From contig JAUWYY010000012.1 of NCBI GenBank assembly GCA_030615605.1, positions 1 through 64,000 of the forward strand: a stretch of 64,000 nt of DNA, in the 5' to 3' direction. Numbering within the stretch: the stretch's first letter is position 1; each line of letters opens with the position of its first letter. The translations under genes and the position numbers were made by a program. Below are positions 35,600 through 46,962 of the stretch, one piece after another. Source of the DNA: a bacterium (GTDB lineage Bacteria; Armatimonadota; Zipacnadia; Zipacnadales; Zipacnadaceae). The notes beneath the pieces are model-generated. The model saw only the letters and a program-made list of their open reading frames with translations. It was not told the DNA's origin and made no database searches.

Positions 35600-37318
35600 A
35601 TGAGCAACATCCAGCGACTTGCTTCACAGATCGAAGTGTCCGCGAAGGTGCCGACTTTCGGAGTTTGTGCGACCAGTGACCCGCGTATTGATGAGCAATC
35701 GCGGCAGCGCTGTGTCAACATTACTGAAATGACCGCCAACGTCATCGGTGAAGCTGTGCAGATGCCCGATGGTACTCCGGCAAGTGTGGTCTACTCGCCC
35801 ATTCTCATTGACGGCGAGCCGCAGGCCGATATGGTCGCCCGCCAGTTCAAGGAGGCCGGAGTTGACGCTATTGTCTGCGTACCGGACACCTGGGCATTTC
35901 CTCAGCCCAGCTTGATCTCGTTGATCGCGCAGTTTCCGAAAGATATCCCGCTTAATCTGACCTGTGGGAACTCGGGGCCCAAGCCGGGGGTCGTCTTCGT
36001 CCACGCCTGTAGCGGCGCCATATCCCAGTACGGCAAGCTAGTACATATCAATGTGGGCACCTGGCCGGATACCGGAATGAATCCGCAGATGACCCCCGAG
36101 ACGGCTGAGGCCCTCATTGACTGGTGCTACGCAGCGATGACTTACAGCGGATTGCGGGGTCGGCGCGTCGTCATCTTTGGGCACGATTCAATGGGTATGG
36201 AAACCGCCCTGCAGCACGTCATCCCCATCCGCAACCTGCTCGGGCTGGAGATTACCCGTCTGGATATGAAGCTGCTGGCCGATATGTTGAGCAAGCAGGC
36301 CTACGACCCCGGCGAGCTTGATGAACTGCGCGGGTGGATTGAGCAGCACGTCGGCGACCGGGTAGAGATTCGTGACGACGAAGAAGAGGCCCGCTTCCGT
36401 CAGAGTCTCGCACTATATCTGGTTGTCCGCGACCTGATGGAGGATCTCAATGCGGTTGGGGGCGGCTTTATGAGCCAGTTGGAATGGGGTTCGGACGTGC
36501 GCGGAATTCATCTGCCTGTCGCGGACGTGATGGAGTCGCTGTTCAACTCCACTTTCGATCATACCGGCCGCAAGGCCCCTCTCCCCTATGCCACCGAAGC
36601 CGACGTGCAGGGCTTGCTCACGCAACTCTATTTCACCTGGCTCAGCGGCGGTAACCCCCCGCTGTTTATGGACTTCCGCAAGGTCTGGGAGCCCTGGGAG
36701 ATTGACCGCCTGGCCCACGAACTGGGCCTGGGCGAGGTAGAGCCGTCTGCGCTGTGGCGGCGCACTGGCTTTGTGGATGGCGACAACTCCGGCAGTGCTG
36801 CCTTTGACTGGGCCGCCGAGCCCGGTGCCAGCATCGAGCAGATTATGTCCCAGGTCAGCTTCCCGCTGGCCGATGAATTCTACTTCCCCGGCGGGGGCAA
36901 TTCGGTCAATTTCGTCTCGCCGGCAGGAATTGCGGGTATCGCCGGGCGCATGGCCTACAGCGCGATGAACAATATCTTTTCGCTCGTCTGGGATGAGGCC
37001 ACTACTGTAAGTCTGCCCGACAAGCTCACCCAGGCGGTCTGTGAGACATCTACGCCGACGTGGCCTCATACCTTCGTGGTCCCCAAGTACGCTACGATGG
37101 GCGAATATAAGCAGTTTGCCCCGGCCAATCATTTTCATATGACCTGGGATCTGCAGGTCTCGCGCCTGGAGTACTGGATGGACCTGGCCAACGTCCTATC
37201 CTGCACACCGTGGCAGGCCCGGGCCGACTATCTCGAGGGCACCGACCGGCCCACACCGCTGCTGTACATCATGAACGGCGGAGAGACTGCCACTAAATTA
37301 ACACTGGCCAAGCAGTAA
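35600..37318 (+). CDS. L-fucose/L-arabinose isomerase family protein
   Basis: 572 aa; VPTFGVCATSDPRIDEQSRQRCVNI...FGHDSMGMETALQH...NHFHMTWDLQVSRLEYWMDLANV. Confidence 0.8.
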   Translation: MSNIQRLASQIEVSAKVPTFGVCATSDPRIDEQSRQRCVNITEMTANVIGEAVQMPDGTPASVVYSPILIDGEPQADMVARQFKEAGVDAIVCVPDTWAFPQPSLISLIAQFPKDIPLNLTCGNSGPKPGVVFVHACSGAISQYGKLVHINVGTWPDTGMNPQMTPETAEALIDWCYAAMTYSGLRGRRVVIFGHDSMGMETALQHVIPIRNLLGLEITRLDMKLLADMLSKQAYDPGELDELRGWIEQHVGDRVEIRDDEEEARFRQSLALYLVVRDLMEDLNAVGGGFMSQLEWGSDVRGIHLPVADVMESLFNSTFDHTGRKAPLPYATEADVQGLLTQLYFTWLSGGNPPLFMDFRKVWEPWEIDRLAHELGLGEVEPSALWRRTGFVDGDNSGSAAFDWAAEPGASIEQIMSQVSFPLADEFYFPGGGNSVNFVSPAGIAGIAGRMAYSAMNNIFSLVWDEATTVSLPDKLTQAVCETSTPTWPHTFVVPKYATMGEYKQFAPANHFHMTWDLQVSRLEYWMDLANVLSCTPWQARADYLEGTDRPTPLLYIMNGGETATKLTLAKQ

Positions 37319-37355: not shown

Positions 37356-38552
37356 TCAGCTGTCCTCGGTTGCACGTTCGGCTTCCATCCAGAAGTATAG
37401 CTGGTGGAGCAGATTCACAAACAGATAAGTGCCCTGCCCAGTTCCGCTCGTAATCACACCAAGCCTCTTCATTCGCTGAATAAAGTTATCGAAAACCCTG
37501 ACCTCGTCTTCCGACAGAATCTCCAGGGCTTCTCTCCTCCGGAATTCTGCCCCAACCGGCAATCGCAATTGTACCAACTTGCGAAGAATGCTCCGGTATG
37601 TATCGCTCCTAATTGCTTTGAACACTTGGGGTTGGAGATGCTTTCGACCGACGATCTCCGCCGCGTCGAATACAGCACTCCTGGCATCCTCCACATCGAT
37701 TACTCCGTCGTCGTCGACGCGGAAGGCCGCATCCCCGATTTCGTGGGCCATTACAGGGAAGCCACCCGACATACGGAAGAAGATATCCAGCGCATCATCT
37801 TCCACGCTCACATCCACGCTTGAGAATGCTTTTTCGTAGAACTCCCTTGTTTCGTCCTCAGACCACGTACGGATTTCGACCACGTCAAAGACCCTTGCGA
37901 GTGAGGGTTGACACGCGATGAGCTCTTGCCGCCGTTCCTCAAGCCCCACGACCAAGACACACAAAGGAAGTGGCTGCTCAGAGGTAGCGATCTCGTCAGT
38001 TAAGCTCTTTAGCCAGTTCGCGAACTCTTCAGATTGTGAAAGACCGTTCACGTCATCCAGTATAAGAAGGATTCCCTCCTGCTCGTCAGTCATCTGTTGC
38101 ATCAGTCCGCGGAGCGCTCCCGGGAAGTCGCGAACAATCGCTCCCAAGTCATCCTCCGAAGCACGGAACTCAAACTCCAGCCCAAGCAGACCCACCTTCC
38201 GTACGTGTCTCCCCATCAGCTCGGTTAGCCTCATGTGCCACGGCCTCCCGATGCTCTCCTTGACAAGACGGTCCAATACTTTCTGCACCATTGCCTCGAG
38301 TGATCTCACACCTCCCAACTGAGCATGGACTCCTATGATCCCGTATTCCCGCTCGACCATAACCCTGACAAAGTGAGCTAGCGAAGTTTTTCCAATACCT
38401 CGTTCGCCGCTAAGAAACGCTACTTGCAGCCGACCGACCCGCACGCTGGCAACCTTTTGCATGAGTTCTTGGATTTCATCCCAGCGGCCCACAAAGAACT
38501 CTACAGAGACGGGCTGTCCAGGGCTAAAAGGACTGCTGATTCCTATAGCCAT
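37356..38552 (-). CDS. P-loop AAA ATPase (Orc1/Cdc6-like or STAND-like)
   Basis: FFVGRWDEIQELMQKV...FLSGERGIGKTSLAHFV (Walker A), ILLILDDVNGL (Walker B). Confidence 0.75.
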   Translation of the reverse strand: MAIGISSPFSPGQPVSVEFFVGRWDEIQELMQKVASVRVGRLQVAFLSGERGIGKTSLAHFVRVMVEREYGIIGVHAQLGGVRSLEAMVQKVLDRLVKESIGRPWHMRLTELMGRHVRKVGLLGLEFEFRASEDDLGAIVRDFPGALRGLMQQMTDEQEGILLILDDVNGLSQSEEFANWLKSLTDEIATSEQPLPLCVLVVGLEERRQELIACQPSLARVFDVVEIRTWSEDETREFYEKAFSSVDVSVEDDALDIFFRMSGGFPVMAHEIGDAAFRVDDDGVIDVEDARSAVFDAAEIVGRKHLQPQVFKAIRSDTYRSILRKLVQLRLPVGAEFRRREALEILSEDEVRVFDNFIQRMKRLGVITSGTGQGTYLFVNLLHQLYFWMEAERATEDS

Positions 38553-38978
38553 CTTGTGGCTCCTTTCCTCCTGTCGAGTACGCTTCTCTCCTGCTAGGTC
38601 GGGCAATGGTACAAATACTATGAATGGACCACGATTACTCGCGCTTGTTTCCGCACTCTCGACTTAGATATCACAGTAGTTTGTGGACGCGCAGAAGAAT
38701 ACCTCCTTATGCTATGAATCTTAATTCGCCCTTATGTCTAGTTTCCCCTGCTCTGCGCCGGGTTCCCATTGATATATGCAATCGGCATGCCAGTTGGTTG
38801 CCTGCACATAGATAACACTGGACGGGTGAATCTCCATTGGGAACTTCGACGGGTAAGCGAGGATGTCCTCTTAGCACAGAAGGACTATGCTTGATCGTGG
38901 CGAATTCGTATACTAGTACCGCATGTTAAGCTAAGCCTGAGAGGTACATAGCTGCTGGAATAGGAGCGCTGGAGTCCA

Positions 38979-39320
38979 ATGAAAACTCTCGCATACCTGA
39001 TAGGCGGATTGCTCGGGATTGTGGGCATTGTCTTTCTCATCGCCGGGATCAGTTGGGTCCGGGTGCAGTGGATAATCATCGGCCCAATACTTGTCGGGGT
39101 GGCCTTCTTTGTTGTATACATGGCGCGGACCAAGGTGCCCGACCAGCGCATTATCCAGGAGATTGATCTGTCCGGCGATGTCCACCCCGAGGAGATGACC
39201 TGTAACAACTGCGGAGGGCCCCTGGAACGGGACAGCATCTCGCTACGGGAGGGCGGAGTCTTTGTGGACTGCCCCTACTGCGGCACCTCCTACCAGATTG
39301 AGGAAGAGCCCAAATGGTGA
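38979..39320 (+). CDS. 2-TM membrane protein with C-terminal zinc ribbon
   Basis: Two hydrophobic helices, then MTCNNCGGPL...VDCPYCGTSYQIEEEPKW. Confidence 0.7.
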   Translation: MKTLAYLIGGLLGIVGIVFLIAGISWVRVQWIIIGPILVGVAFFVVYMARTKVPDQRIIQEIDLSGDVHPEEMTCNNCGGPLERDSISLREGGVFVDCPYCGTSYQIEEEPKW

Positions 39321-40735
39321 GCAGGATCGCGCAGGCTGCTGGACGGCTGGCAGGAGTAGTAAGTGATGATCTGCGCCGCTTTCGGGCACAGCTTTATGCG
39401 CTGCGACCCGCCAGCAGTTGCGTACCGGGTCTGTACACATACCGCATTACTGCTTCTGAAGGCCAGATGCGCCTGCATCTGCGCATTCACCAGGACTACA
39501 CAGGTCTGTTGCTAATCAACGGGCAGGAGGCAGTTCACCTGACGCCGACCGCAGCACATATGGCCAAGCTGGCGCTCGATGAGGTGCCCGCAGCAAGTGC
39601 GCTGGCTGCATTGGGACGATCATATCCGGAGGTGCCGCCGGACAGACTACGCGAAGATCTGCCGCGGATAACCGAGATGATAGGCACGCTCCGCCAGCCG
39701 ACATCAGGCTGTTCACTGTCTCAGATAGACACCGAAAAGACGGGGCTGTATAGCCACAGAGCACGTGCTCCCTACAAGGCTGACCTGGCCGTGCATTATG
39801 CCTGTAACAACAACTGCAGCCACTGTTATAACGAGCCAGGACGGCGGACTATGCTGTCCGTGCCGCTGGCCGATTGGAGGCGCATACTTCGCAAGCTGTT
39901 TGATATCGGAGTGCCTTACGTGATCTTCACTGGCGGCGAGCCAACGCTGCATCCGCATATTCTTGAGCTGATTGGCTATGCCGATAACTTAGGCCAGATT
40001 ACCGGTATGAATAGCAATGGCAGGCGGCTGGCCGACGCTGATTTTGCCACCCGCCTCAAAGAATCAGGCCTGGATCATATTCAGATAACACTTAACTCGC
40101 ATCGCCCTGACCTGCACAATCAGATCGTCGGGGCCAATGCGTATGACGAGACGATTGCCGGTCTGCGCAATGCCCTGGCCGCCAGACTGCATACTATCAC
40201 CAACACCACTCTGACCCAGGCTAACGCAGATGAAGCTCTGGAGATGGTGGACTTCCTGTGCGGGCTGGGTGTACGCACCTTTGCTATGAACGGTATGATC
40301 CATTCGGGGTGCGGGACGCGCCACGAGGGCACTTTGACCGAAAGCCAGTTGCGTCCACTGCTGGAGAAGGTTGCAGAGCGCGCCGCCGAGTACGGTATGC
40401 GCTTTCTGTGGTACACTCCCACGCAGTATTGCCGCCTCTCCCCTATCGAACTTGGACTGGGCCCGCGCACCTGCAACGCGGGGGAGTATTCAATCTGCAT
40501 CGAGCCTAACGGCGACGTCCTGCCCTGCCAGTCATACTACGAGAGCGCCGGCAATATACTTGACGACCCCTGGGACGAGATTTGGAACAGTGAGCTATTC
40601 CGTAGCTTCCGCTACCGCCGCGAAGAGCCGCAGGTAGCCGGCTTGCCTGAGAAGTGCTGGAACTGTGAGTTACTACGCGTCTGTGGCGGAGGCTGCCGGC
40701 TGAAGCGACACGCGCGGACCTCGGAGGTGAACTGA
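39314..40735 (+). CDS. radical SAM/SPASM peptide-modification-type enzyme with N-terminal PqqD/RRE-like region
   Basis: 473 aa; VHYACNNNCSHCYNEPG (CX3CX2C), FTGGEPTLHPHI, SPASM: TCNAGEYSICIEPNGDVLPCQSYYESAGNILDDPWDEIWNS...CWNCELLRVCGGGCR. Confidence 0.9.
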   Translation: MVSRIAQAAGRLAGVVSDDLRRFRAQLYALRPASSCVPGLYTYRITASEGQMRLHLRIHQDYTGLLLINGQEAVHLTPTAAHMAKLALDEVPAASALAALGRSYPEVPPDRLREDLPRITEMIGTLRQPTSGCSLSQIDTEKTGLYSHRARAPYKADLAVHYACNNNCSHCYNEPGRRTMLSVPLADWRRILRKLFDIGVPYVIFTGGEPTLHPHILELIGYADNLGQITGMNSNGRRLADADFATRLKESGLDHIQITLNSHRPDLHNQIVGANAYDETIAGLRNALAARLHTITNTTLTQANADEALEMVDFLCGLGVRTFAMNGMIHSGCGTRHEGTLTESQLRPLLEKVAERAAEYGMRFLWYTPTQYCRLSPIELGLGPRTCNAGEYSICIEPNGDVLPCQSYYESAGNILDDPWDEIWNSELFRSFRYRREEPQVAGLPEKCWNCELLRVCGGGCRLKRHARTSEVN

Positions 40736-40737
40736 TC

Positions 40738-42057
40738 ATGACGCAGGCCTCTCTACTGCAGAGATTCATTGACTCGCTCAAGATACGACCAGCCAGCCCG
40801 TCTGTCGGGCCGGAACCGGGTCTGTATCACTATGAGTATCTGGAGAAGGAGTGGCCGACGCGATTTCATCTGCGCATTGATCCCGACGGACAGGGTCTGC
40901 TGCTGGCCAATGCCGCCCAGGCGGCGATGCTATCGGCCAGCGGCGTGCTGATGGGAAAGGGACTGCTGGAAGGCTGGAGCAATGATGAAATCGTTGCCGA
41001 GGTCGCGGCGGCATTTCCTGGGGCCACGGCTGAGCAAATCGCCGCCGACCTAGCTGAGGTTCGTGCATTGATTGCCGACCTCGGCACGCCCGGCGACAAC
41101 TATCCGATCTCTAATCTGGACGATCCCTATGCCGCGACGCGCAGTCGAATGCTGGCCGCGCCACTGCGGGCAGATGTTGTGCCGGGCGAACCTGAACAGA
41201 CCAAACAGATCCTGCAGCAACTTTGGGAGGCCGGCATCCCTCAGGCCACTATACTTGTTCAGTCCGAGGCCACTAGCGAGACTGTTGTCCGGATAGTCGA
41301 GAGCGCCGAGGACCTCGGGATGATCGCCGGGCTGCGTACTCTGGCTCATTGGCTACCCGCCGATGTCCTTGATGAAGCCGCCAATGCCGGGCTTGATCAT
41401 CTGACCCTGGCCTACATCTCCCCTATCGCCCAGCAGCACGATGCGCTGACCGCTGCGGGTGACCATGACCTGGTACTGCGACACTTTGCTCGCTGCCACG
41501 AAGTGGAGCTGTGCCCCGTCGCGCAGGTTCCGCTGCTCCGCGATAATGTAGACGGGCTTGAGACTCTCATCGCCGATCTGGGCGAGCGGGGCGTTACCAA
41601 TATCTCATTCTTCGCACTGGCGTGCCCCGACGATGACCAAGCCGCCCGCCAGGTAGGCGCTCTGTCTGGCTCGACGCTGCCGCAGGTGGCTACCACAATC
41701 AACGAAGCTGCGGAGGCTGCCCAGGTGCGTTATCTGTGGGAGCCGCCAGTGCGGTTTGATGTGACCAAGTCGCTGAGCGACCATATCGTTGCCGGGCCGC
41801 GCGCCGCCGGTGATGTGAGCATCCGGGTTGACTCAGATGGTACCGTCTACCCGGCGCGGGGGCCGCGCAGAGCAGCAGGTAACATTTTGCACGACGACTG
41901 GGAGCAGATCTGGCGCAGTCCCTGCTTTGCCCGCTACGGCGAGCGGCTGGCCGCCCCGACGCGCTGCGCAGATTGCCCGGATCTACCCATCTGTGCCGCG
42001 GACTGTCCGCGCGACCCCCGTGGCTGGAGCGATGATACCACAGGTGGTGATGAGTGA
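40738..42057 (+). CDS. radical SAM-like/SPASM paralogue lacking the CX3CX2C motif (putative pseudoenzyme partner)
   Basis: 439 aa; N-term PGLYHYEYLEKEWPTRFHLRIDPDGQGLLLAN aligns with PGLYTYRITASEGQMRLHLRIHQDYTGLLLIN of the upstream gene; C-term AAGNILHDDWEQIWRS...RCADCPDLPICAADCPRDPRG. Confidence 0.8.
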   Translation: MTQASLLQRFIDSLKIRPASPSVGPEPGLYHYEYLEKEWPTRFHLRIDPDGQGLLLANAAQAAMLSASGVLMGKGLLEGWSNDEIVAEVAAAFPGATAEQIAADLAEVRALIADLGTPGDNYPISNLDDPYAATRSRMLAAPLRADVVPGEPEQTKQILQQLWEAGIPQATILVQSEATSETVVRIVESAEDLGMIAGLRTLAHWLPADVLDEAANAGLDHLTLAYISPIAQQHDALTAAGDHDLVLRHFARCHEVELCPVAQVPLLRDNVDGLETLIADLGERGVTNISFFALACPDDDQAARQVGALSGSTLPQVATTINEAAEAAQVRYLWEPPVRFDVTKSLSDHIVAGPRAAGDVSIRVDSDGTVYPARGPRRAAGNILHDDWEQIWRSPCFARYGERLAAPTRCADCPDLPICAADCPRDPRGWSDDTTGGDE

Positions 42058-43841
42058 TGAGGCGTTACTTGATTGCAGCCCTGATTCTGGTACTGGTGGC
42101 TGGGACAGCGAGTTGGGCGCAAAACTACTCCTTCTCAGTCCCCCGTATGCTCCTGGAGGTCACTCCCAACAGCGATGCCTCAGTGACCCTGGACTATACA
42201 ATAGAGTTCTACTGCCAGCAAGGCGCCCATCCCATTGATGTCGTAGACGTCGGCCTACCCCATGAAGACTACGATATCAGCAATATGCAGGCAAGCATTG
42301 GCGGTTATGCTGCAAGTGATATTCGCAAGTCGCAAGAGATAGCTTGCGGCGTGGAGGTCCATCTGGATCCCTATCCCATACAACCTGGCCAAAGCGGCGA
42401 GTTTCACTTCAGTGCCACGATGCCTAACCTTGTCTTCCAGGACACCACCAACAAGGATAACGCCTCACTGCAGATCACGCCCACATGGTTTGATGCAGAT
42501 TTGCTGCAGGGCTCCACACAGTTGAATGTGGTTGTGTACCTCCCGCAATCGGTCAAGCTCGACGAAGCTCTGTATCAGAAAAAGCCGTTTAGCGACAAGC
42601 TGCAGCTACAGAATAGAAATGCCGTTGTGTGGCGCTGGGAGCAGACGCGGATGGATGACCGGCACCCGGTGGGGGTCTCCTTCCCCCAGCGCGACCTGGA
42701 GCGAGTAGCGCCCATGACGAAGCTGATGCTGGTGGGCAAGTGGTGGCGGGACAATCCCACCATCCGCTTCTTCTGGGCCATAGGCCTATTTGTGCTCTTT
42801 GGCTTCATCTTCTTTCGTCTGACCAGCGGGACCGGAGTAACCGTCTTTATACTTCTGCTGGGCGTCTCGGCCATCACCTTCGTGACGCACCCCTTCCTCG
42901 AAGCAATCGCGCTGCCGGTGCTCTTGTTCATCTGGTGGGTCGGTGAGCGTAGCCAAGTGGGCCGTCGGCACAAGTACCTCCCCCCCATCGCCTCAGTGGA
43001 ACACGGCGGCATCAAGCGGGGTCTGACGGTACCTGGGGCAGCAGTAGTAATGGAGTTGCCGCTGGGCAAGGTACTCACGCTGGTCGTCTTCGGCCTGCTG
43101 AAGAAAGACATCGTCCGGCAGGTTCAGGCTGATCCTCTGGCGCTGGAGCTGGTTGAAGATTACCACGGGAGCCGATCTGAGCGGCAGGCCACTGCTCGGG
43201 AAAACGGCACCGTCATCCACGCATACGAACAGCCTTTCCTGGACGTCTTTGAAGAGAATCCGGGAGTGCCCATTGAAGATTTGAACGTGCAGGAGCCAAT
43301 GAAGGGCCTGATCGAGAAGGCCGCCGAGCGGATGAGCGGGTTCAATCTCCCGCAGACTCGCGAGTATTACCGCTCGATTGTACACGGGGCCTGGACGAAG
43401 GCCAAGGCCATCGGCGACCTCAGCGAGCGGACCCAGTTCGTGGACGAGAACTTCCTGTGGCTGCTGCTGGATGATGGTTACGACGAGAGCTTCAATACCT
43501 GGTACGGTCACGGCTACCACTATCACCCCACCTGGACGCGAGGCGGGGCCGGAGCTGGCCTGCCCGCACCGGTGACAACCGGAGGCCGCACCACCACCGG
43601 AGACGTAGCCGCCTCCTTCGCCGGATGGTCGGAGAACGTCACTGGCAGGCTGGCCAACACACTTGACCCAGTATCCCTGGGTACCGCCGGGCCACCCGGA
43701 ATTGACCTCTCCGGCGTGGATCGGGTCACCCTTGATGTGCTCGAATCTATGGCGGAGAGCTCGGGAAGCGGAGGCGGCGGAGGCGGCTGTGCTTGTGCGG
43801 GATGCGCCTGTGCCTGTGCTTGTGCCGGTGGTGGGAGATGA
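42057..43841 (+). CDS. signal-peptide/TM membrane protein with Gly-Cys-Ala repeat C-terminal tail
   Basis: MRRYLIAALILVLVAGTASWA..., central TM helices, ...SGSGGGGGGCACAGCACACACAGGGR* (alternative GTG start at 42054). Confidence 0.85.
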   Translation: MRRYLIAALILVLVAGTASWAQNYSFSVPRMLLEVTPNSDASVTLDYTIEFYCQQGAHPIDVVDVGLPHEDYDISNMQASIGGYAASDIRKSQEIACGVEVHLDPYPIQPGQSGEFHFSATMPNLVFQDTTNKDNASLQITPTWFDADLLQGSTQLNVVVYLPQSVKLDEALYQKKPFSDKLQLQNRNAVVWRWEQTRMDDRHPVGVSFPQRDLERVAPMTKLMLVGKWWRDNPTIRFFWAIGLFVLFGFIFFRLTSGTGVTVFILLLGVSAITFVTHPFLEAIALPVLLFIWWVGERSQVGRRHKYLPPIASVEHGGIKRGLTVPGAAVVMELPLGKVLTLVVFGLLKKDIVRQVQADPLALELVEDYHGSRSERQATARENGTVIHAYEQPFLDVFEENPGVPIEDLNVQEPMKGLIEKAAERMSGFNLPQTREYYRSIVHGAWTKAKAIGDLSERTQFVDENFLWLLLDDGYDESFNTWYGHGYHYHPTWTRGGAGAGLPAPVTTGGRTTTGDVAASFAGWSENVTGRLANTLDPVSLGTAGPPGIDLSGVDRVTLDVLESMAESSGSGGGGGGCACAGCACACACAGGGR

Positions 43842-44581
43842 GTTCGCCGGACCAGGATGAGCCAGGTTGGCCGGATTTGCCCTCGGAAGCCCAGGTTCAA
43901 CAGCTCTCCCAGTGGCTGGCCGGGCCGCGCTCGCGGGCGCTGCGCCGGGCGGCCATCGGTCATCGCCGCCATGTGCTGGAAGTGGGCGCCGGTCATTGCG
44001 TTGTCACCAGCGAGCTTGCCCACCGCGGCAGCGGCCAGGTCATTGCGCTTGACCGTCGTGCTGATGTCCTGGCTGGCTGCACTGCGCCTGAAGTCAGCTT
44101 TGTGGCCGGGGACGCGCAGCAACTACCCTTCGCCGATGCCAGCTTTGACCTGGTCTTCTTCCAGAACACGCTGCTGTGGATCGCTAATCCAGGGACCGCT
44201 ATTGCCGAAAGCATGCGGGTGCTGCAATCAGGTGGCGCAGTTGTGGCGCTGGAACCCGACTACGGAGGTATGATGGAGTATCCTGATTGGGGCATCCGCG
44301 AACTGTGGATTAGCGGATTGTCTCAGGCCGGTGCCGATCCTCTAGTCGGCCGTAAGCTGCCCGGGCTGTGCGAAGCGGCTGGGATAGAGACGTGGGTGGA
44401 GCTAGTACATATTCCCCAGGCAGCCCAGGCCCAGACGCTGAGCTTGCTAGATGACCTTCCTCTGACCGACAATCAACACCAAATCGCTCAGAATGTGCAT
44501 GGCTATATCGAAAGAGCCAACGGCGACTGGGCCGTATTCCTGCACGTGCCCTACTTCCTCATCGTGGCAACGAAGCCCTGA
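43838..44581 (+). CDS. class I SAM-dependent methyltransferase
   Basis: Start MSSPDQDEPG overlaps upstream stop (ATGA); HVLEVGAGHCVVTSELAHRGSGQVIALDRR...LPFADASFDLVFFQNTLLW. Confidence 0.9.
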   Translation: MSSPDQDEPGWPDLPSEAQVQQLSQWLAGPRSRALRRAAIGHRRHVLEVGAGHCVVTSELAHRGSGQVIALDRRADVLAGCTAPEVSFVAGDAQQLPFADASFDLVFFQNTLLWIANPGTAIAESMRVLQSGGAVVALEPDYGGMMEYPDWGIRELWISGLSQAGADPLVGRKLPGLCEAAGIETWVELVHIPQAAQAQTLSLLDDLPLTDNQHQIAQNVHGYIERANGDWAVFLHVPYFLIVATKP

Positions 44582-46272: not shown

Positions 46273-46962
46273 TCAGTCAGTCTCTCTGCGCCGGCGGACA
46301 GCCGCCCCCAGACTCATTAGGCCCAGGGCTAGCATAGCCATGGTGCTGGGTTCCGGGACATAGGAGTCGGGACGCAGAATGTGTCCGTCCAGCGAGCCGT
46401 CGCTGGGCGGGAGGAGGGGGTCGTCGAGTAGGAAGCCGCTGTTCCAAAATTGGTTAAGGCCTTCCCCGCCTGCCTGACCATCTTTTGCATAGAAGTCGCC
46501 CCACACCGGCAGTCGATTGCTGGTGAACTCGACGGTAAAGGTTGTCCCCCAGGCGTCGTCGAATTTCGTGCCGTACAGGTCACCGGGCATGTCCGGGTTA
46601 CCTGATCCGGGGTAAAACCATTCGCCGATGAATGCCTCCGTATAGTCCCCAGTGATGTCCCAGATGTCGCCCTCCGGGAGTGGCTCGGAGGTTTCCATAA
46701 TAAAGTGACTGACGGCCCCATCGTAGACGCGGATTTCGTATTGGTAGTGGTAGAAGCCAGCCTCCGTTTCGGTGATCCACCATTCTATCTCGGCGGGAAA
46801 CCAGTTCTCATCATCACCCGGGTCAATCACCCAGATGCCCGTGCCGTCGTCGGACGTGCCAGTCAACTGACCGTGATAGGTCGTGTCCGTCATTGCAGTA
46901 ATACCAGTCAGCAACACTACCGCCAGCATGGCGGCGAGCAACATATAACCGTATCTTGTCAT
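46273..46962 (-). CDS. PEP-CTERM sorting-domain protein
   Basis: Signal peptide plus C-terminal YVPEPSTMAMLALGLMSLGAAVRRRRETD. Confidence 0.9.
   Translation of the reverse strand: MTRYGYMLLAAMLAVVLLTGITAMTDTTYHGQLTGTSDDGTGIWVIDPGDDENWFPAEIEWWITETEAGFYHYQYEIRVYDGAVSHFIMETSEPLPEGDIWDITGDYTEAFIGEWFYPGSGNPDMPGDLYGTKFDDAWGTTFTVEFTSNRLPVWGDFYAKDGQAGGEGLNQFWNSGFLLDDPLLPPSDGSLDGHILRPDSYVPEPSTMAMLALGLMSLGAAVRRRRETD

Follow-up and report, generated by a model that had tools for sequence, protein, structure and literature searches.

The window analysed here is the whole stretch of 64,000 nucleotides, positions 1 to 64,000 of contig JAUWYY010000012.1 (assembly GCA_030615605.1), from a bacterium of the Zipacnadaceae (Armatimonadota). 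It contains a five-gene operon with all genes on the + strand in the order A-B-C-D-E. The best explanation of this operon as a whole, and in our judgement a probable one, is a membrane protein (D) with a post-translationally modified tail on which a radical S-adenosylmethionine (SAM) enzyme (B) acts. Genes A and B overlap by 7 bp, B and C are spaced by 2 nt, C and D overlap by 4 bp, with GTG as the start of D, and D and E overlap as ATGA, with the ATG of E at 43838. Coordinates, order and overlaps had been given identically in an initial annotation made from the sequence alone, and were reproduced by a check of the open reading frames (ORFs). Searches with profile hidden Markov models likewise bore out its domain assignments, returning a zinc ribbon for A, Radical_SAM plus SPASM for B, a class I methyltransferase for E, and only the SPASM part for C. 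The genes and their parts are as follows.

38979..39320, + strand: A, small membrane protein with a hydrophobic N-terminus (about two transmembrane (TM) segments) and a zinc ribbon (weak zinc-ribbon matches; invariant residues)
39314..40735, + strand: B, RRE(PqqD-like)-radical SAM-SPASM enzyme, proposed tail modifier (domain searches; genome-level match with the tail)
39458..39673, + strand: RRE/PqqD-like region of B, residues ~49-120 (TfuB1 RRE profile match; the SkfB match begins here)
39797..40258, + strand: radical SAM core of B, C164-X3-C168-X2-C171 (domain search, motif)
40472..40669, + strand: SPASM domain of B with auxiliary-cluster cysteines (domain search, conservation)
40738..42057, + strand: C, degenerate paralogue of B (domain searches, motif loss)
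42054..43841, + strand: D, membrane protein carrying the Cys-Ala tail, 595 amino acids, GTG start (ORF, homologues)
42132..42686, + strand: predicted extracytoplasmic beta-sandwich domain of D, residues 27-211 (AlphaFold2, Foldseek)
42756..42974, + strand: three predicted TM helices of D, residues 235-307 (AlphaFold2, TM-like segments of relatives)
43029..43541, + strand: predicted cytoplasmic all-helical domain of D, residues 326-496 (AlphaFold2)
43788..43838, + strand: invariant C-terminal tail of D, CACAGCACACACAGGGR, residues 579-595, proposed modification substrate (conservation, pattern scan)
43838..44581, + strand: E, class I SAM methyltransferase, Methyltransf_11 (domain search, PDB profile matches)

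Protein D of the window ends in GGGGGGCACAGCACACACAGGGR. Homology searches located relatives of D in 40 of 150 related genomes, and 30 loci were read, comprising the window's own and 29 relatives. Taken whole, these D proteins mostly share about 50-60% identity with that of the window (range 49-89%), and in 29 of the 30 loci the tail is exactly CACAGCACACACAGGGR, 17 residues long. The exception (L011, G010:C388:232-1955) has a frameshift in the assembly, with D ending at residue 530 and the tail codons lying in another frame. No two of the 29 identical tails have the same DNA sequence, the mean difference being 10.7 in 54 bases. An alignment of 43 diverse D proteins has a mean column identity of 27%, and 14 of the 20 invariant columns are located within the tail. 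As so many DNA versions give one peptide, and as the tail holds most of the invariant columns, it is under strong selection at the protein level. In the tail, Cys alternates with Ala, as a rule in two arms about a single Gly or Ser, and six to eight closely spaced cysteines are present.

The AlphaFold2 model of D (mean predicted local distance difference test score, pLDDT, 82.8) consists of a beta sandwich with pLDDT mostly above 90, three TM helices, a helical domain and a disordered tail. TM-like segments in the 43 relatives number one (28 proteins) or three (15 proteins), odd in all 43, and a positive loop follows in 43 of 43. This places the tail, by prediction, in the cytoplasm. No Pfam or NCBIfam family is passed by D at curated cut-offs, and a PDB sequence search with D gave nothing significant. 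Foldseek matched mainly the beta domain, to M1-aminopeptidase beta domains and to ribophorin I/Ost1 of the oligosaccharyltransferase (OST), at low TM-scores; these matches were not used as evidence of function.

The distribution of the tail was determined independently of the rest of D by scanning about 85,000 species genomes with a degenerate DNA pattern for CACACAGGGR-stop. At least 118 stretches from about ten bacterial phyla, the Asgard archaea and Thermoplasmatota were retrieved. Bacterial groups among the matches listed are Chloroflexota, Armatimonadota, Planctomycetota, Acidobacteriota/Aminicenantes, Zixibacteria, Coatesbacteria, Fermentibacterota, Edwardsbacteria, Hydrogenedentota and two 'Deltaproteobacteria' bins; the archaea listed are Asgard archaea and Thermoplasmatota, including Methanomassiliicoccales. 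All matches listed are the C-terminus of a D-like protein, or lie in frame at contig or chunk edges. B is encoded in the same chunk as the tail in 91 of the 118 stretches listed. For the remaining 27, 20 genomes were searched and B was encoded in all 20, often away from D; 18 of these B proteins score 558-698 bits (one with an internal stop) and two are partial (216 and 420 bits). Other matches to the B profile in these genomes mostly score 142-167 bits, with one of 398 bits directly behind B that is probably the dead paralogue.

The same match is seen in samples drawn by lineage. Of 301 evenly drawn Chloroflexota genomes, 20 contain the tail, and a B scoring at least 650 bits occurs in these same 20 and in none of the others; the reversed tail pattern, used as control, has no match in the 301 genomes. 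B and D also coincide in 291 Armatimonadota genomes, with three D-only cases, all at contig ends. In Asgard genomes A and D are located in one place and B and E in another, and both are retained, so that linkage alone does not explain the match between tail and B. The genome counts are not phylogenetically independent; the association spans several distant phyla and two domains. The proposal would have been undermined by Cys-Ala-tailed homologues occurring mostly without the radical SAM enzyme, and no tailed protein without B was encountered among the genomes tested. Taken from this co-occurrence, the tail of D is very probably the target of B.

B of the window matches Radical_SAM at 1.8e-24 and SPASM at 1e-12. 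The CX3CX2C motif is present in 88 of 88 B proteins, and the SPASM cysteines are conserved. The PqqD/RRE-like N-terminus proposed in the initial annotation is weak in the window copy and is supported at family level: PqqD is matched by 11 of 28 family members (best 2.5e-6), and the B profile matches the RRE protein TfuB1 at 1.6e-4 over profile positions 45-116. Solved relatives in the PDB matched by the B profile include SkfB, PqqE, SuiB and CteB.

A second type of tail was found beside a second type of enzyme. B-profile scores of 280-360 bits define a sister clade, which forms one branch of the tree with support 100/100 and retains CX3CX2C in 11 of 11 proteins checked. Adjoining these sister enzymes are D-like proteins ending in CHSACHSACHSAC repeats, (CHSA)n, in Armatimonadota (L191-L201; for example L197:333-3621) and Chloroflexota (L204, L205); in two genomes (G021, G022) both proteins are present on separate contigs. 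A different tail with a different enzyme clade is the pattern expected of an enzyme-substrate pair. L194, a D-like protein of type II, scores above the DUF2207 cut-off, and a second type II protein is weakly similar to TIGR04222 (30.9 against a cut-off of 43). Neither A nor E was identified in the type II loci read, weak matches aside. In three loci (L197:3625-4797, L198:8173-9345, L194:8009-9058) the type II radical SAM gene is followed by one for a protein of about 350-390 amino acids, either coiled-coil or unassigned; a zinc-ribbon protein is located nearby in L191 and L202, in L191 together with an SPFH/Band-7 domain, reminiscent of PspA-type membrane-stress operons (PMC11237479).

The third protein of the operon, C, is about 25% identical to B across its length and matches SPASM at 8.7e-6, without CX3CX2C. 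The radical three-cysteine motif is missing from C in 20 of 20 cases and from the corresponding Chloroflexota protein, B2, in 36 of 36. C has lost the GGE motif and retains the last four SPASM cysteines (CX2C-X5-CX3C, C-terminal); B2 has lost the SPASM cysteines and retains GGE, and the two form separate clades in the tree. No degenerate partner was seen in any of 20 archaeal loci, nor in family f19 (L031, L032), where the order is A-D-B-E, which indicates that the partner is accessory. It is probably a binding subunit. The obligatory pair of radical SAM proteins envisaged earlier is thus not upheld, as the second protein has no radical-cluster cysteines, is absent from the archaeal loci and falls into two clades of the tree. 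In one locus (L033:11082-13790) B and C, its degenerate paralogue, are fused in a single ORF. Three Chloroflexota loci (L075, L086, L147) contain, besides the usual tailed D and B2, an extra B-like enzyme with a C-terminal extension beside a short tailless D-like protein.

Protein A adjoins D or B in most loci. Its zinc ribbon, CX2C...CX2C, follows the hydrophobic N-terminus, and the protein ends in ...CPYCGxxYQxEExPKW; C75, C78, C98, C101, P111 and W113 are invariant in 21 relatives. LahSB is a methyltransferase of a lanthipeptide system. E matches Methyltransf_11 and class I methyltransferases at 5.8e-19, and PDB matches of the E profile include phosphoethanolamine N-methyltransferases and LahSB, the LahSB match covering the generic methyltransferase core alone. 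Together with the invariant GGGR end of the tail, the LahSB match makes end-methylation by E possible. The methyltransferase had been counted as an operon member from the outset; it is common, though perhaps not present in all loci. Given the type II loci, it is not needed for the basic pairing of enzyme and tail. A and E were also compared with the DVU_1556/1557 cassette, to which they show weak similarity, far under the model cut-offs.

Gene content, tail invariance, co-occurrence of tail and B, predicted topology and loss of catalytic motifs in C and B2 were computed; from them we infer the role of B as tail modifier, the kind of bond formed and all physiology. D would be anchored with its beta sandwich outside the cytoplasm and its helical domain and (CA)n-GGGR tail inside. 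B would bind D via the RRE domain and modify the alternating Cys/Ala tail, most likely at its cysteines and perhaps by thioethers of the sactionine type. Formation of a thioether to alanine by a SPASM enzyme has been documented (PMC8188230), SkfB is an RRE-radical SAM-Twitch sactisynthase (PMC6231123), and by analogy with SkfB and RumMC the tail pattern appears suited to thioether bridges. Catalytically dead C, or B2 in Chloroflexota, may serve where present as a substrate-binding or scaffold subunit, E would most likely add a further mark, possibly at the GGGR end, and A may be a membrane partner. The product would not leave D, forming a sulfur-rich tip that is tethered to the membrane on its cytoplasmic side and perhaps senses metals or redox state. 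That the tail is a radical SAM substrate had been suggested in the initial annotation, and the genomic match and the sister clade with its different Cys tail speak for it; the chemistry assigned to it is interpretation.

Several observations weigh against modification of the tail by B. Co-occurrence cannot identify the altered residue or the type of change. The PqqD match of the window's own B has an E value of 0.17, the pseudo-enzyme (C or B2) and E may not be universal, the loci read share no conserved protease or exporter among their neighbours, and the top family matches of B include the heme-pathway enzymes NirJ2 (128 against 500) and AhbD (109 against 500), far under the cut-offs. These last matches, the zinc ribbon of A and the six to eight closely spaced cysteines, which would bind soft metals, are what might be expected if the tail were a thiol arm left unmodified or at most loaded with metal or Fe-S, and B made a tetrapyrrole-like or other cofactor held by it. 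This is considered unlikely, as the NCBIfam cut-offs place B outside NirJ and AhbD by a wide distance, B carries an RRE-like peptide-binding domain, and the pairing of the sister clade with a tail of another pattern fits substrate matching better than a shared cofactor.

Alternatively, the tail might serve as precursor for a small molecule, be it a cofactor, a signal or an antimicrobial, that is made by B and E and then released, with D as delivery scaffold. PqqA, mycofactocin and sactipeptides are of this kind, and the B relatives PqqE, MftC, SkfB and SuiB act on such precursors. However, since no peptidase or exporter is conserved nearby, the classical logic of ribosomally synthesized and post-translationally modified peptides (RiPPs), with a cleaved and exported product, is inapplicable; the precursor would also be a membrane protein of about 560-600 residues with conserved folded domains, and the tail is predicted to be cytoplasmic. 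Near-total invariance across phyla, as found here, is atypical of most secreted RiPPs, and a released product is regarded as quite improbable. The compositional simplicity of the tail could also suggest low-complexity sequence kept by chance or by repetition at the DNA level, unrelated to the operon. This explanation is given next to no credence, being refuted by the 29 DNA versions of one peptide and the exact match of tail and B in 301 genomes, and being at odds with conservation from archaea to Chloroflexota.

For a membrane protein modified at its tail by B, the closest known parallel is provided by the TIGR04222 proteins associated with MNIO (DUF692) enzymes, which are likewise multi-domain membrane proteins with a low-complexity Gly/Ser/Cys C-terminal tail, the proposed substrate, beside a RiPP-type enzyme (PMC12452194). 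These occur mostly in Actinomycetota, their association with MNIO is loose, the enzyme being missing in 490 of 1372 genomes, and the tails are predicted to be periplasmic (PMC12452194). The present system differs in possessing a radical SAM enzyme, a match that is complete where tested, a tail that is predicted to be cytoplasmic and is almost invariant, and representatives in archaea. D of the window does not match TIGR04222, and 5 of 43 relatives do so weakly (best 7.1e-5). RRE-radical SAM-SPASM maturases (SkfB, SuiB, CteB, RumMC, PqqE) share RRE, radical SAM and SPASM/Twitch parts with B, but their substrates are short peptides, whereas the sole candidate here is the C-terminal tail of a membrane protein of about 600 residues.

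GeoRSP (TIGR04302/04303/04304), earlier named as the closest arrangement, likewise combines a radical SAM/SPASM enzyme bearing a PqqD-like part with a second SPASM protein. B and C score 100.7 and 28.7 against the TIGR04303 cut-off of 400, and to our knowledge GeoRSP has no Cys-tailed partner; the TIGR04222/MNIO proteins are the closer parallel. His-Xaa-Ser (Hxs) and ACGX systems also have radical SAM enzymes and repeat-bearing targets, with a repeat different from the Cys-Ala tail. B falls short of the cut-offs for Hxs (HxsC 58.8 against 267.9; HxsC4 66.5 against 500) and for ACGX (TIGR04340 79.4 against 400). DUF2207 proteins have a similar order of extracytoplasmic beta domain, TM segment and cytoplasmic domain. 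D does not pass the DUF2207 cut-offs (PF09972/PF20990), DUF2207_C being weakly matched in 1 of 43. In the literature no paper combining radical SAM enzymes with DUF2207 was found, nothing relevant was found for the tails CACACAGGGR and ACHSACHS, and no published description of the system was found.

It appears reasonably likely that these loci represent a widespread, undescribed post-translational modification system common to bacteria and archaea, whose dedicated RRE-radical SAM enzymes alter a nearly invariant Cys repeat on the cytoplasmic end of D. Each of two or more tail codes, among them (CA)n-GGGR and (CHSA)n, would have an enzyme clade of its own, and the product would be a fixed, sulfur-rich, cofactor-like tip and not a secreted peptide. 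RiPP-type radical SAM enzymes are usually viewed as makers of small freed peptides; here the apparent target is the end of a large membrane protein retained by the cell. That this target is almost the same in lineages as far apart as Asgard archaea and Chloroflexota points to a basic role in physiology, for example in metal, redox or envelope sensing. The chemistry is accessible to direct testing, as the candidate substrate and its limits, the enzyme and a mutant control are all specified, and cultured hosts carrying the system include Bellilinea caldifistulae (L138), Levilinea saccharolytica (L149), Ornatilinea apprima (L070) and Leptolinea sp. HRD-7 (L099). With the second tail code, nature provides a comparison by which enzyme specificity can be probed.

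In the loci read, only A, B, C/B2 and E recur as neighbours of D across lineages; beyond A-E no conserved neighbour genes were found, just lineage-specific flanking genes. In the window, an AAA/STAND-like ATPase (37356-38606, - strand) lies upstream of the operon, with no relative beside the operon in the wider loci read. An L-fucose isomerase-like protein (35600-37318, + strand) is located upstream of the operon solely within the same genus (L037, L049). On the other side, a secreted protein with a PEP-CTERM-like C-terminus, PEPSTMAMLALGLMSLGAAVRRRRETD, is encoded at 46273-46962 (- strand).

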